From: a bacterium
GTDB lineage: Bacteria > 4484-113 > JAFGCY01
DNA: 64,000 nucleotides
Assembly: GCA_020849855.1 (NCBI GenBank)
Contig: JADZFO010000007.1
Coordinates: 1-64,000 of the forward strand
Reading direction: 5' to 3'
Shown piece after piece: positions 23,115 through 39,202 of the stretch; the first letter of the stretch is position 1, and every line of letters starts with the position of its first letter. The notes below the pieces were generated by a model. The model saw only the letters and a list, made by a program, of their open reading frames with translations. It did not search any database and had not been told where the DNA came from. The position numbers and the translations under genes were made by a program.

Positions 23115-23206
23115 CGGCCCTGAACCTCGTTTCGCCCTTCGCCTTTCGCCTTTGGTCTTTGCCTTTCGCCTTTTCGCCTTGAGCCTTGAGCCTTGTGCCT
23201 TTCGTC
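23115..23206. repeat. Short-word repeat tract (TTTCGCC / GCCTT words)
   Basis: Quasi-tandem words CCTTTCGCC, CCTTTGG, GCCTTGA and GCCTTGTG fill about 90 bp between two convergent genes and abut the stop codon of the lipoprotein at 23207. The words are imperfect and of varied length, unlike a simple microsatellite. Confidence 0.75.
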
Positions 23207-25336
23207 TTAATCGAGAGGGTTATAAATCTGGATCAGGCGGTTCTGCTCACTGACGATGTAGGCGCTCTCAACTCCCAGCGCAAAGGAGGAGAAATAGAAG
23301 GTGTTCTCCCCATCCGCCTCGCGGCTGTCGCTCAGCACCGGGTTGCTGCCCAGGACCGGCGGCTGGCCATAGTCAAGGCTGGCCAGCCAGATCACGCCAT
23401 CGGTATCCGCGATGTAGATCCGCCCGTCCTTGTCCACCGCGGCCCGGCTGTTCACGTCGCCGCTGCCCAGGCTGAGCGTCCAGAAGGGCCCGCTGATCTC
23501 CGGGCTGATGCCGCTGGTGTCAACCGTCACACCGCGCAGCTCGGAGAAGTCCGTCTCGCTGCCGTCCGTGGGCACCGGCTGGACGATGTAGTCCGAATCG
23601 CTGACCCGCGAGGGCCCCGCGACGACCGCGCCGCCCAGGTTATAGCTGTCCTCGCGCAGCCCGGTGCTGGAGTTGATCAGCAGCAGCTGCCCGCTTTCGG
23701 GATAGATGAAAAGCTCGTCGGCCAGCACGCAGCCCCCGGCCAGGTTCAGCGGGGTGCCCAGGTCGCGGTAGCTGGAGTCGGGCAGCTCGGCGCCCGTTAT
23801 CTGGCTCAGGCTGATGCAGTGCTCGACAAAGCCGATGGAGAAGCCGTCAAAGGTGCAGGGCCAGCACAGGGCCCCGTTGTCCGCGTTGAAGGCCGGCTCG
23901 GCGTTAAGGCGGATCGAGCTGTTCAGCGCGCTGTTCTTCCAGGCCTGGCCTCCGTCCTGGTTCAGGGCCATGGGGTGGGCCTGGCCGTCGGCGGTGCAGA
24001 CCAGCACTCCCGCCGGGGCGATGTTCAGCGAGCTGTAAGGCCGGGCGTTCTCGTCCTTCAGGGCGCCCAGGCTGGCCTGGAACTTCAGCGCGCCGGCTGG
24101 CGTGACCCCGAAAAGATAGCCCGTGGACACCGCGGAATTCTTCTGCGCCACCACGAAGTAGGCATTGCCAAGGCTGTCCAGGCAGGGGGCCTGCGGCGGG
24201 CAGACAAAGCTCTTGCCTTCAGGGGCATAGGCATTGCTGTCAAAGCTGTAGCGCAGGCTGACCAGGTCGCTGCTGTAGCTGCGCAGCAGGCCGTCGCGGC
24301 TGAGGGCATAGACATTGCCCTGGCCGTCAATGACCGGCGAGGTACGGTTCGGGCCGTCAGTGCTGCTGGAAAGCAGGACAGAGTTAAAGCCGTCCAGGTT
24401 GGCCGGGCCGCTGCGACTTGTCGTGGTGCCCGAGCCATCCACGCTGCCGCTCATGCGCGGCCACAGCCCCTGCGCCAGCTTGAACTCGGCCGGCAGGCCG
24501 CCGGACGGCGTGGCGCTGGACAGGGCGCTGTAGGCGCTCGAGCCGTCCACATTGCGCGCCTTGAGGGCGAAGAAGTACAGCTCGCCGTTCTGCAGTCCTT
24601 CTATGTTCCACTGCGTGGCCGTCTTGTCCAGGCTCTGGCTCAGCACGGCATTGCTCATGTCAATGCTGCTGCTGTAGAAAACATCAATGCTGTCGGCGCG
24701 GCTGTCGGGATAGCTGTCCCAGCTCAGCTCGGCGCTGCCGTCGCCGGCCAGTGCGCTCAGGCCGCCGGGCGGCGGCAGGGGGGTCAGGTTCTCGACGCGC
24801 AGCTCGGCATGGTTGTAAAGCACAAAGCCGCCGTCGGTGACGATGGCGAAGTAGAAGTAGCCCTGCGGGCTGATATAGCGCGAGGCGCCGTCCCCGAAGC
24901 TGTGGCTGAAGCCGGCAAAGCGCGCCCCGCCGACAGGCGCCCAGCGCTGCTGCTCCCAGTCGCCGAAGTACAGAAAGTAGTCGTTCTGCAGGTCGGTGAT
25001 GAAGAGCTCCAGCTCAGTCAGGCTGTAGCTGGGGGTGAAGGGGCCCACCTGGTAAAGCGCATAGCCCAGGCGGCCCAGGGCGGCCGTGATGGTCAGGTTG
25101 GGCGGGTTGCTGTCAATTCCCAGGCTGGCGTCCGCAAAATCGGCGCTGGGAATGCTGGTCACTTCCTGCAGGGACACGCTGCGGCCGGCCGTGTCAGGGG
25201 CGGCATCCAGCCGGGCCAGGGCAGGCAGTCCGCCGCTGTGTCCTGCAGCCTCCGGGCCGGGAACAGCAGTCCCGCAGGCGCTGAGCACAAGCACTGCCGC
25301 GAGCAGCAGAGCTGCCCGCCAGCGGCCATGGCGCAT
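23207..25336 (-). CDS. Lipoprotein with unnamed domain, Fn3 and PQQ-like propeller repeats
   Basis: A 709-residue lipoprotein. The ATG at 25336 follows GGAACGGAC; an ATG six codons upstream is possible. Lipobox LSAC. Residues about 80-182 hold the same unnamed domain as the lipoprotein at 4209-5486 (YALYQV, YFLYFGDWEQQRW, GYFYFAIVTDGG). An Fn3-like domain follows (PPPGGLSALAGDGSAELSWD, in part; YFFALKARNVDGSS). The C-terminal half has PQQ/quinoprotein-like blades (GNVYALSRDGLLRSY, GRIYIADTDGVIWLA). Probably an exported binding or structural protein. No catalytic residues recognised. Divergent from the rmlA-like gene. Confidence 0.75.
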   Translation of the reverse strand: MRHGRWRAALLLAAVLVLSACGTAVPGPEAAGHSGGLPALARLDAAPDTAGRSVSLQEVTSIPSADFADASLGIDSNPPNLTITAALGRLGYALYQVGPFTPSYSLTELELFITDLQNDYFLYFGDWEQQRWAPVGGARFAGFSHSFGDGASRYISPQGYFYFAIVTDGGFVLYNHAELRVENLTPLPPPGGLSALAGDGSAELSWDSYPDSRADSIDVFYSSSIDMSNAVLSQSLDKTATQWNIEGLQNGELYFFALKARNVDGSSAYSALSSATPSGGLPAEFKLAQGLWPRMSGSVDGSGTTTSRSGPANLDGFNSVLLSSSTDGPNRTSPVIDGQGNVYALSRDGLLRSYSSDLVSLRYSFDSNAYAPEGKSFVCPPQAPCLDSLGNAYFVVAQKNSAVSTGYLFGVTPAGALKFQASLGALKDENARPYSSLNIAPAGVLVCTADGQAHPMALNQDGGQAWKNSALNSSIRLNAEPAFNADNGALCWPCTFDGFSIGFVEHCISLSQITGAELPDSSYRDLGTPLNLAGGCVLADELFIYPESGQLLLINSSTGLREDSYNLGGAVVAGPSRVSDSDYIVQPVPTDGSETDFSELRGVTVDTSGISPEISGPFWTLSLGSGDVNSRAAVDKDGRIYIADTDGVIWLASLDYGQPPVLGSNPVLSDSREADGENTFYFSSFALGVESAYIVSEQNRLIQIYNPLD

Positions 25337-28017: not shown

Positions 28018-28168
28018 CAGCGCGCGGCCCCGGCGCCGCGCCCAGCACAGACCCGCACACTGGCGGCCAGCCGCCGGCCTGCGCGTCCTGATTCAGCACA
28101 GCAACAGCGGCCGCTGGAAGCGGCCTGCGCCCTTGTGCGCGAAAACCAGACCCACGGAGGAGATGGAA

Positions 28169-28702
28169 ATGGAGCAGCGGGAGATTTGTGAGATGAGCGC
28201 ATCGGTAATCGATAACCTCTTTGGCCAGCTGGCAGAGCAGCTTGAGCTGCTGCTCAGCCTGCGCGACCTGGGCCTGCAGAAGCAGGACGCCCTGGTCCGC
28301 TGCCGCCTCGACCAGCTCCAGGGCCTGTCGGAGCGCGAGATCCAGCTCAGCGGCCAGCTGGCCGAGATGGAGGCCCGCCGCCTCAACGCCATCGCCGGCG
28401 TTGCCGCCGAGGGCCTCTTCAGCGAAGGGCCGGAGCCGGACGGCGAAACCCTGGCCCGCCTGATCCAGCGCCTGCCCCTGGTGGAGCAGCCGCGCTTCAT
28501 CAAGCTGCTGCCTGAGTTCAGCGCTGTGACCCGCGAGCTGTCCAGGATCCGCGAGCACAACGAGGCCCTGACTCTCAACCTGCTGGACTACACCGGCATG
28601 GTGATGCGGCTTCTGACCTCCGACGGCCCGGCCAGCCACTACGGCGCCAGCGGCGTGCTGCAGGAGCGCCCCGGCCGCGCCATGCTGGACAGCCGGGTTT
28701 AG
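28169..28702 (+). CDS. flgN: Flagellar export chaperone FlgN-like protein
   Basis: A 177-residue helical protein that should bind FlgK and FlgL before export through the flagellar type III system. The ATG at 28169 follows GGAGGAG; a second ATG two codons earlier is possible. Long amphipathic helices (LFGQLAEQLELLLSLRDLGL, ALVRCRLDQLQGLSEREIQL, LSRIREHNEALTLNLL) and the C-terminal YTG motif fit FlgN. Assignment rests on helices plus position between flgM and flgK. Its stop codon overlaps the left inverted repeat of the four-helix element. Confidence 0.8.
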   Translation: MEQREICEMSASVIDNLFGQLAEQLELLLSLRDLGLQKQDALVRCRLDQLQGLSEREIQLSGQLAEMEARRLNAIAGVAAEGLFSEGPEPDGETLARLIQRLPLVEQPRFIKLLPEFSAVTRELSRIREHNEALTLNLLDYTGMVMRLLTSDGPASHYGASGVLQERPGRAMLDSRV

Positions 28703-29275
28703 GTTACAGGGAACAGGTTACAGGGGACAGGGGAAAGGTTAGAGGTGTGGGAGATTGAAGGCGGGAAGAGAAGCGCGCGCTCCGCAGTATTCCGGCTCAG
28801 CTCAGGATTCTCTTCCTAAGGGCAGTCAGCATCTTGCTGATCTCTACTATCAGGTCAAGCGAGCCGCGTACATCAGCATTGCTCACATATCCCAGTTTGA
28901 CTCCCAGCAGGGCGAAGGTCTCTGTCTCCATTAACGAACCTTTGGCCATTGCCAGGAAATGAGCAAAGTCCTTCCGTGTTGACCTCGCATGTCCTTCGGC
29001 AATGTTGGCCGGAACCGCGGCGGCAGCACGCGTAATCTGGTCAGTCAGCCTGTACATCTCCTGTCTCGGAAAATTTGCGGATAGTTCGTAGATTGCCACC
29101 GTCAGGTCCATAGCTTTTTGCCAAACGATCAGATCGCGATGCGACTCGATTTTCATTCCGTATCCTCACTCAGAGCCTAATAATATCATATACAGTCAAT
29201 AAATGTAATCAACAACTGACTGCAAGGCTCCCTTCAGTCTTATCTGTCACCTGTGCCCTGTCCACTGTAACCTCG
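28702..29275. mobile_element. 0.57-kb element: Avd/S23-like gene between 30-bp inverted repeats
   Basis: Left arm 28702-28731 is built of AGGTTACAG and GGACAG words. Right arm 29245-29274 is its inverse; the two match at about 25 of 30 positions. Between them lies one minus-strand gene for a four-helix bundle protein. The element separates flgN from flgK, which normally adjoin. No target-site duplication or transposase was seen. Confidence 0.6.
28797..29156 (-). CDS. Four-helix bundle protein (S23/IVP family, Avd-like)
   Basis: A 119-residue protein of the family found in 23S rRNA intervening sequences and, as Avd, in diversity-generating retroelements. Signature features: MKIESHRDLIVWQKAMDL, RQEMYRLTDQITRAA (in part), VPANIAEGHAR, DFAHFLAMAKGSL-E, LRKRI. 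Basic helices suit nucleic-acid binding; Avd is a pentamer that binds reverse transcriptase and template RNA. No reverse transcriptase or template/variable repeat is in the window, so this is an orphan. It is antisense to the flagellar operon and flanked by inverted short-word repeats. Confidence 0.9.
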   Translation of the reverse strand: MKIESHRDLIVWQKAMDLTVAIYELSANFPRQEMYRLTDQITRAAAAVPANIAEGHARSTRKDFAHFLAMAKGSLMETETFALLGVKLGYVSNADVRGSLDLIVEISKMLTALRKRILS

Positions 29276-29374: not shown

Positions 29375-31183
29375 ATGATCCGCGGCGCATTCCTGGGGCT
29401 GGAAACCGCGCGCAAAGGCCTGATGGCCGCGCGGGCGGGACTGGACACCACAGGCCACAACATTGCCAATGCCGGGACGGAGGGCTACAGCCGCCAGCGC
29501 GCGGTGACCAGCGCCTCCAGCCCGATCTCGCTGCCCGGGGCCTTCTTCACCCTGCGGCCGGGAATGCTGGGCACCGGGGCGGAGATCATCTCCATCACCC
29601 GGATCCGCAGCCAGTTCGTTGACGCCCAGATCCAGTATGAGGGTTCTGCTTCCTCGCATCTGGGCATGCTGTCCACCGGCCTGCAGCGCGTGGAGGACAT
29701 CTTCGGCGAGCCCGCCGAAGCCCAGTTCTCCGGCCTGATGGACTCCTTCTTCAACGCCTGGGAAGACCTGTCCAACGACCCGGAAAGCCTGGCCGCCCGC
29801 ACCAACCTGCGGGAGGCGGCCCAGGGCCTGACCGACTATGTCAACAACATCGACTTCGCCCTGAAGCGCGAGGTCGAGGACATCAACACCCAGATCCGCG
29901 GCCAGGTGCAGCAGGTCAATACCCTGACGGCGCAGATCGCCGAGGTCAACCGCCAGATCACCCGTTCCGAGACCTCCGGCGCCCGGCTCAGCGTCAAAGC
30001 CAACGACCTGCTGGACAAGCGCGACCAGTTGGTGGAGCAGCTCAGCAAGCTGGTCAATGTCCGCCAGCTGGACAGCCCCGACGGCAGCGTGAACATCCTG
30101 ATGGACGGCCACCCCCTGGTGACCGGCGGCGACGCCCACGAGCTGGTGCTGCGCTCCAAGAGCGCCGACCCCAGCAAGCTGGTGCTGGAGTTCAAGGAGG
30201 GCAACTTCCCGGCCCCGCTGCACAGCGGCGAGATGGGCGGGCTCTTTGAGCTGCGGGATGTCCAGATCCCCGCCGTCCGCGACAAGTTCGCCACCCTGAT
30301 CACGGCCTTCACCAACCAGGTCAACAAGACGCACCAGCAGGGCTATGGCCTTGACGGCACCAAGGGCCGCAACTTCTTTAACGACACCCAGACCCGCTCG
30401 GCCACCGGCACGCTCTTCCTGCCGGCCGGCACCACCCTGGACACCAGCCTGGACAGCCTGGGCATCACCAGCGGCGACTTCTTTATCCAGGGCCAGCGCA
30501 TCGAGATCACCCCGGAAGAGGTGCTGCCCGGCCAGGCGCTGACCCTGCGCGGCCTGCTGCAGCGCATTGAGTCCGCCAGCGTGGACATCCGCGCGGAGCT
30601 GAACCTGGACGCCGGCGCCCCGCGCATCGAGATCAGCCAGTACAACCCGGCCTATGGCACCAACAGCCTGGCGCTTGTCGACGGCAACTCGAACTTCTTT
30701 GAAATCAGCGGCCTGGACAAAGCGGTGGTCAGGGACCTCAGCCTTGACCCGCCTTACGATAATTCGCTGTCCAACTTCCGCCTCAGCACCAGCGTGCTGA
30801 ACAGCCTGGATGCCATTGCCGCCACCGGCGACGACGGCCTGGGCTTCCCAGGCCCCGGTGACAACCGCACGGCTCTGGCCATCGCCGACCTGAAGAACAA
30901 CGCCCAGGCGCTCTTTGGCGCCACCTATGGCGAGTACTTCGAAAGCACCATCGCCATCCTTGGCGCCACGGCCCAGACGGCCGAGCGCAGCGAGGCCAGC
31001 CAGAAGCTGGTGCTGCAGCAGCTTGAGGAGCGGCGCCAGATCATCAGCGGCGTGAACCTCGACGAGGAAGCGGTGCAGCTCATCAAGTACCAGAAGGCCT
31101 TTGAGGCCAGTGCCCGGGCGCTGAGCGCCATCGACGAGACCCTGGACCTGATCGTCAACCGCATGGGAACGGTGGGGAGATAA
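29375..31183 (+). CDS. flgK: Flagellar hook-associated protein 1 (FlgK)
   Basis: A 602-residue protein forming the first hook-filament junction zone, exported by the flagellar type III system. ATG 29375 follows GGAGGCGGAG. N-terminal D0 helix with MIRGAFLGLETARKGL, HNIANAGTEGYSRQR (rod/hook N-terminal motif) and IEGxx-type repeats; the C-terminal helix has SGVNLDEEAVQLIKYQKAFEASARALSA and ends LIVNRMG. Length is within the family's range. Four-base gap to flgL shows cotranslation. Confidence 0.95.
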   Translation: MIRGAFLGLETARKGLMAARAGLDTTGHNIANAGTEGYSRQRAVTSASSPISLPGAFFTLRPGMLGTGAEIISITRIRSQFVDAQIQYEGSASSHLGMLSTGLQRVEDIFGEPAEAQFSGLMDSFFNAWEDLSNDPESLAARTNLREAAQGLTDYVNNIDFALKREVEDINTQIRGQVQQVNTLTAQIAEVNRQITRSETSGARLSVKANDLLDKRDQLVEQLSKLVNVRQLDSPDGSVNILMDGHPLVTGGDAHELVLRSKSADPSKLVLEFKEGNFPAPLHSGEMGGLFELRDVQIPAVRDKFATLITAFTNQVNKTHQQGYGLDGTKGRNFFNDTQTRSATGTLFLPAGTTLDTSLDSLGITSGDFFIQGQRIEITPEEVLPGQALTLRGLLQRIESASVDIRAELNLDAGAPRIEISQYNPAYGTNSLALVDGNSNFFEISGLDKAVVRDLSLDPPYDNSLSNFRLSTSVLNSLDAIAATGDDGLGFPGPGDNRTALAIADLKNNAQALFGATYGEYFESTIAILGATAQTAERSEASQKLVLQQLEERRQIISGVNLDEEAVQLIKYQKAFEASARALSAIDETLDLIVNRMGTVGR

Positions 31184-38593: not shown

Positions 38594-39202
38594 ATGACAG
38601 TGCGGAAGGATGAGCGCGGAGTGCGGAATCTATGCCAGAGCGAGCACGGCCAGGGCGAGCATGGTCAGGGCGAGCTTGGCCCGCGTGAGCATGGTCAGGG
38701 CGAGCCTGCGAGCCCGGACGGCCTGCTGCCCACGGCTACACACTTGAAGCACACAGCAAGTCAGGCTCAGCGCTCAGCACACAGCACCCAGCACTCAGCA
38801 CTCACATTTCGTCTAACTTCCCGCCGTGGAATCACCCTGCTGGAGCTGGCCATCGTGCTGGCGATTGTCGGCGTCATCGTCTTCATTGCCATCCCGACCA
38901 TGAACCCCAGCAAGGATGAGGCCACCATTGACCTGGCCAAGGAACTGCTGGCCTATGTGCACTCCCAGGAGCAGAAGTACTACGGCATGCACGGCGTCTA
39001 TGCGCCGCTGAGCGCGCTGGCCAGCGACCCGCAGCTTGGCGAGCAGTTCGACCAGCGCTTCGCCGGCGACAAGCCGGAGGTGAACGGCATCAGCTTCCTC
39101 GGCCCGCAGGCTGAAAGCCAGTTCTACGAGATCATCGCCGTGCTGCCGGACGGCTCGCGCTACAGCGTCAATTCCACCGGCGAGATCCGGGCCCTGCAGT
39201 AA
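38594..39202 (+). CDS. Prepilin-like protein with a repeat-derived N-terminal extension
   Basis: The prepilin part is clear: SRRG then ITLLELAIVLAIVGVIVFIAIP, with Glu at +5, and a 95-residue periplasmic domain (HSQEQKYYGMHGVYAPLSAL). The open frame extends upstream to ATG 38594, giving a leader of about 75 residues, far longer than usual (6-25). Those extra residues (SEHGQGEHGQGE, then THLKHTAS, AQRSAHSTQHSA) come from short-word repeat DNA. Either a downstream non-ATG start such as the TTG in HLKH is used, or the repeat has displaced the true start. Unlike the paralogues at 159-1156 the body is divergent. Confidence 0.7.
   Translation: MTVRKDERGVRNLCQSEHGQGEHGQGELGPREHGQGEPASPDGLLPTATHLKHTASQAQRSAHSTQHSALTFRLTSRRGITLLELAIVLAIVGVIVFIAIPTMNPSKDEATIDLAKELLAYVHSQEQKYYGMHGVYAPLSALASDPQLGEQFDQRFAGDKPEVNGISFLGPQAESQFYEIIAVLPDGSRYSVNSTGEIRALQ
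38638..38815. repeat. Short-word repeat tract (15-mer GAGCATGGTCAGGGC, then CAGCACTCAG words)
   Basis: Four to five copies of a 15-bp unit near 38640-38712, then CAGCACTCAG/CACACAGCAC words near 38750-38810. It overlaps the 5' part of the prepilin-like reading frame and keeps it open. Confidence 0.8.

Follow-up and report, generated by a model that had tools for sequence, protein, structure and literature searches.

In RAYT/REPIN systems, a gene stands between inverted copies of a short sequence, and further copies without the gene are scattered as convergent pairs, family by family within each genome. These systems (for the names RAYT and REPIN see PMC3116915) are one comparison for the locus described here, and the intervening sequences (IVSs) of 23S rRNA genes are another. 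The 23S rRNA IVS of Coxiella carries an S23 open reading frame (ORF) preceded by GACAGAT heptamers and has a 28-bp terminal stem that is cut by RNase III; the S23 structure from Xanthomonas is cited in the same paper as a homopentamer (PMC4990558). Heptamer repeats have also been described in Xanthomonas and Nostoc, and those of Xanthomonas, with the word GGGAATC, form 70–75 convergent pairs per genome, S23 being unmentioned (PMC4692102). The TAACTGA repeats of Beggiatoaceae (PMC4679880) were likewise not connected with S23 genes. In an incomplete search of the literature we found no work linking heptamer arrays to S23 genes in general; the two occur together only in the Coxiella IVS.

We analysed a stretch of 64,000 nt from a bacterial contig (positions 1 to 64,000 of JADZFO010000007.1), which we will henceforth refer to as the window. 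It contains an S23/IVP gene (28797–29156, minus strand) encoding a four-helix bundle protein of 119 aa, located between flgN (28133–28702, plus strand; a reading frame counted from its first TTG, with the true start probably further in) and flgK (29375–31183, plus strand; assigned from the ORF list and homologues in relatives). The first-pass annotation had recognised an S23/Avd-like gene on the minus strand here from the letters alone, and both profile and fold comparisons bear this out. Specifically, in a search of curated profiles the protein matched PF05635 (23S_rRNA_IVP) with an E-value of 1.6e-37 and 128.4 bits (cut-off 33.8); this was its sole match, with no Y1/HUH transposase (TnpA_REP) among the profiles hit. 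Its predicted structure has four helices (pLDDT 96.5), and the closest fold matches were 2GSC (TM 0.9), which is XCC0516, and 2RLD. Next came Avd of diversity-generating retroelements, which has the same fold as S23 (4dwl, 8ub7, TM ~0.77) at a sequence identity of 11–13%. Among the window ORFs read, there was no reverse transcriptase and there were no template or variable repeats beside the S23 gene, its neighbours being flagellar genes. The element lies between flgN and flgK and not in a 23S rRNA gene, and the window had no Rfam match.

The gene is enclosed by two arrays of tandem degenerate heptamers of the GGTTACA/GGTGACA type, with GGGAACA and GGGGACA as further variants. The left array (28701–28744, on the 3′ side of the gene) reads GGTTACA GGGAACA GGTTACA GGGGACA GGGGAAA GGTTAGA, overlaps the flgN stop codon (28700–28702) and self-repeats at a spacing of 14 in a repeat search. 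The right array, CTGTCACCTGTGCCCTGTCCACTGTAACCT (29244–29273, on the 5′ side and inverted with respect to the left one), reads GGTTACA GTGGACA GGGCACA GGTGACA inwards. Over 30 nt the two arms (28701–28730 and 29244–29273, 513 nt apart) are 83% complementary (25/30). Inverted 30-bp arms matching at about 25 positions, and a left arm at the flgN stop codon, had been correctly identified in the first-pass annotation, which also saw the words of the arms and missed their period of 7. As tandem arrays whose word differs from element to element, these arms are not ordinary transposon ends. A promoter-like site (TTGATT, 16 nt, TATGAT; 29185–29212, minus strand; by consensus match only, 9/12) lies between the 5′ arm and the S23 start codon.

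Inverted arms had been predicted for other S23 genes of this genome, and all seven of its PF05635 genes do lie between inverted heptamer arrays (none is without), all at unrelated sites. Their words are AACTGNT, GGTTACA, GGGAAGC, GTCCTGA, ATTGCTG/ATTGATG, AATGGCT and AAGGCTC; with seven words for seven elements, we rejected a DNA transposon or MITE with one conserved terminal inverted repeat. We then considered S23 loci from relatives, 80 loci from many bacterial and two archaeal records, and loci from Brevundimonas, Nostocaceae and Xanthomonadales, all sampled by protein similarity alone and hence independently of their arms. In 217 flanks of 350 nt, we scored a period (from 4 to 13) as present when at least 16 of 21 successive bases equalled the base one period on. 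Period 7 was found in 59% of S23 flanks and period 8 in 14%, and every other period in at most 1.5% (a signal at period 14 being a consequence of period 7); stretches more than 900 nt away from S23 genes gave 3.4% for period 7 and 1.0% for period 8. Word matching relied on an ungapped score with a fixed threshold. At a score of at least 14, a locus's own two flanks matched in inverted orientation in 86% of 108 S23 loci from many phyla, far more than by chance: in direct orientation they did so in 10%, and flanks taken from different loci in 2.5%. The result was replicated in Brevundimonas (96%), Nostocaceae (76%) and Xanthomonadales (86%; controls 6%, 19% and 3%, respectively). About 14% of the 108 loci had no detectable arms, and none of the loci with weak or no arms that were checked for a 23S rRNA location lay in rRNA. 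Read in the S23 sense, the 5′ arm was G-rich (43% G, 11% C; G exceeding C in 167 of 175), so that the polarity of the arrays is fixed, and at either end it is the G-rich strand that runs inward. As far as sequence comparison goes, this anatomy and the element-specific words are established features of these loci.

Some observations from the same survey concern other arrangements. About ten places in one genome (G017; L374, L375, L376) have twin S23-like genes in an imperfect palindrome of ~700 bp, the halves of which are 74–76% alike around a strong central hairpin; no heptamer arms were seen there. In another genome (G063; L377), two S23 elements with the common word GGGGCTA lie ~1.7 kb apart and may reflect local duplication. 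Phage records gave no S23 match with the query used. We also considered, and rejected, the idea that periods of 7 or 8 serve as universal stops by giving stop codons in all frames, as this held for 34% of sense arms and 39% of the reversed control.

The word of an element follows its S23 lineage. Arms were shared between taxa in 2% of pairs with less than 25% protein identity and in up to 40% of pairs with 65–80% identity, and word similarity correlated with S23 identity (Spearman 0.163; 200 permutations with an SD of 0.035 and a maximum of 0.107). The closest relative found for the window S23 (68% aa identity) is encoded on plasmid pANA02 of Anabaena sp. 90 (L309), where cas6 and cas4 of a type I-D CRISPR operon are separated by the element; its arms contain AGGTGACAGGTGACAGGGAACAGG, i.e., the window's words, and the coding DNA is only 70% identical. 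The left array of this Anabaena element is more than 300 nt long. Where related species have an element at the same site, its arms were 83–100% identical and third codon positions of S23 42–89%. S23 is under purifying selection, with a dN/dS of 0.02–0.11 in all pairs except one very close pair; the ungapped codon comparison between the window and Anabaena was left out, since its pN of 0.46, for two proteins with 68% identity, suggests a shift in register. At two sites in Xanthomonadales, an arm matched best with the other arm of its own element rather than with other elements' arms at that site (21.6 vs. 10.0 at carA-carB; 23.4 vs. 15.2 at accB-accC), meaning that the two arms of an element change together. 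Judged by this covariation, the repeat word and the S23 gene belong together.

Several sites were found both occupied and empty. The flgN-flgK junction had no insert in any of the four relatives examined, so the gene is not fixed there, as the first-pass annotation had supposed it would not be. Between aguA and aguB, many Brevundimonas species have an empty site with a stop/start overlap, and in other species the site is occupied by S23 genes of three lineages with three words. In the first of these lineages translation runs through the arms, and a stop/start overlap persists at either side, which would hide any target-site duplication. Between rpmD and rplO, in the operon of ribosomal protein genes, 11 of the 30 species read have a convergent pair without S23; other species lack it, and its words differed between two related species (G040 and G091), in the latter of which no S23 gene was found. 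For 167 elements the upstream gene lies in the same direction, and 66% of their arms started within 15 nt of the stop codon of that gene (median −1); spread to such positions, mostly just after a stop codon, would leave operons unbroken. Two sites showed further features. In G009 (L038), where S23 elements have octamer words, the flgN-flgK junction upstream of flgK is empty except for a short octamer-like run, AACTAGATAACTCTGCAACTGG. In one Brevundimonas genome (G073; L182), an unrelated small ORF (starting MSDVTLFRPVGDAELKLIEESGW) takes the place of S23 at aguA-aguB, and this junction may thus be a general insertion hot spot.

Arrays with the same words also occur without an S23 gene. In 464 kb of this genome, we found 31 heptamer arrays away from S23 genes, 68% of which matched the host's own seven S23 words; when seven foreign elements were drawn instead (60 draws), the match averaged 14% and reached at most 39%. 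Paired arrays were inverted in 14 cases and direct in 3. The window element's own word recurs as a 138-bp convergent pair (L211:3412-3549). The window itself contains two adjacent S23-free arrays (23126–23208), the second of which (GCCTTGA) has the word of another S23 element of the same genome (L007), as well as the array CAGCACTCAGCACTCAGCAC (38764–38806). Several of the genomes studied are metagenome assemblies; the contigs of G223 and G306 are 3.8 and 4.8 Mb long. In G306, with one S23 gene and the word GGGAATC, 90% of 21 S23-free arrays matched (null mean 7%), and in G223, with six S23 genes, 68% of 37 did (null mean 23%); the null maxima are high (0.95 and 0.73, respectively) because some foreign elements have those words too. 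The cyanobacterium G044 gave a weak excess (47% vs. 30%), most of its S23-free arrays being single. Most of the unmatched arrays in this genome (G000) have an orphan word, GTCGNAN, with 22 stringent matches in the genome and none for the reversed pattern. Its convergent pairs (L238-L259) stand ~80–110 nt apart, and the family has a member in the window (GTCGGAA ... TCCGACC, 2306–2466, found by array search). No S23 gene with this word was found in the genome, nor any cargo gene in the pairs that resembles a partner.

We regard it as fairly probable that these loci form a word-specific selfish family, in which S23 would recognise the word and S23-free pairs would be non-autonomous copies. The window element, ~0.5 kb in size, would be a small selfish unit with a single S23/IVP gene, framed by convergent arrays of a degenerate 7- or 8-bp word; each S23 lineage has its own word, which its S23 protein would recognise. 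S23 would be the determinant that lets word-ended segments spread to gene boundaries, mostly just past a stop codon, and its non-autonomous products, the counterpart of REPINs for RAYT, would be the pairs and single arrays that have this word and no S23 gene. We infer from sequence comparisons a putative binding of S23 to its own word and a spread that depends on S23, as well as a further enzyme, of the host or from elsewhere, that would carry out the DNA chemistry. Weighing against this reading are the weak excess and mostly single arrays in G044, the heptamer pair in G091, where no S23 gene was found, the orphan word in G000, the S23 loci that had no detectable arms and the fact that S23 has no known catalytic motif. 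Its near-invariant polar residues (Q40, R43, S47, N51, E54, R58, S74 and E77, with Ala at position 47 in the window protein) are compatible with a conserved putative binding or active site. It seems doubtful that S23 is itself the predicted recombination enzyme, i.e., a transposase-like class built on a four-helix bundle, with a strictly conserved polar set (Q40, R43, N51, E54, R58, S74, E77) and a recognition word that changes between lineages, which would move DNA with convergent 7/8-mer arrays of this word at its ends.

Like the 23S rRNA IVSs of Coxiella and Leptospira, the window element has a homologous S23 gene and inverted terminal arms, with heptamers reported in Coxiella. Unlike them, the elements described here lie at gene boundaries of protein operons, have a word that varies between elements and dispersed S23-free relatives, and bear no sign of RNA-stem selection. 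The likeness to RAYT/REPIN lies in a gene between inverted arms whose sequence recurs without the gene elsewhere in the genome, but S23 is a four-helix bundle rather than an HUH transposase, and its arms are tandem arrays of a 7/8-bp word rather than palindromic REPs. GGGAATC is the arm word of the S23 element at accB-accC in Xanthomonadales, the S23 protein of which is a close relative of XCC0516. The S23-free arrays that have their host's own words include the GGGAATC repeats published for Xanthomonas. The TAACTGA repeats of Beggiatoaceae may belong to the same class. The element class was apparently undescribed before, although its newness rests on the combination of features and on an incomplete search of the literature, and a cautious reader could see in it a kind of IVS.

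The loci could alternatively act at the RNA level as IVSs outside rRNA, the arms pairing in read-through transcripts that are cut by RNase III so that the S23 segment is removed or separated. This would agree with the Coxiella IVS and with the many elements that lie inside operons in the direction of transcription. Arm mismatches, however, showed no excess of G-U (242, against 249 for A-C; 81 against 90 in co-directional elements), and hence no sign that wobble pairs are tolerated; we therefore rejected selection for an RNA stem, and it seems that the arms are important as DNA, or else as single strands that a protein reads. Many S23-free arrays are moreover unpaired, and the promoter-like site in the window would place the 5′ arm outside the S23 gene's own message, so that we consider an RNA-level element unlikely. 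The first-pass annotation had suggested a small mobile or RNA-processed element that would need a helper enzyme in trans: empty sites, arms at all seven genes and S23-free relatives uphold an insertion element, whereas the mismatch pattern lends no support to RNA processing.

The covariation of word and protein would also be expected if S23 were a nucleic-acid-binding regulator with the arms as its operators and the S23-free arrays as regulon sites or attenuator hairpins, and arrays do occur between operon genes, some adjoining T runs (e.g., at rpmD-rplO). We nevertheless find such a regulatory system quite improbable, given that S23 genes occupy unrelated sites that are empty in relatives, that words at one site differ between sister species, that arrays persist without an S23 gene, and that array neighbours had no common function in the loci read. 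Finally, S23 genes might be cargo of ordinary transposons, with the heptamers as slippage products at their edges. In G159 (L303, L304), an S23 heptamer element is nested in a MITE with ends GGGAGCAACGCGATTTTGTGA and target duplications of 9 and 8 bp, and in G124 (L294-L300), a 12.3-Mb Nostocaceae genome, seven near-identical S23 copies follow a common long 5′ flank with a transposase-like gene, with heptamers on the 3′ side only. We do not take these multiplied copies as proof of self-movement, since they ride in another transposon. No such ends surround the seven elements of this genome, most elements share no sequence outside the arms, and both arms have one word with a fixed polarity and periods of only 7 or 8, all of which makes a passenger role very improbable.

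To return to the word-specific selfish family, S23 proteins from rRNA intervening sequences have remained without a function for decades, and reports of heptamer repeats (GGGAATC in Xanthomonas, those of cyanobacteria and GACAGAT in the Coxiella IVS) have appeared singly and without an origin. Through the link between S23 and its word, several bacterial repeat families that are so far unexplained could be traced to one kind of origin. Given that each S23 protein comes with its own predicted word, its function is directly testable, with the words of other elements as controls. If S23 does read the word, the natural protein-word pairs would provide a large data set for studying how sequence recognition changes in a small helical bundle.
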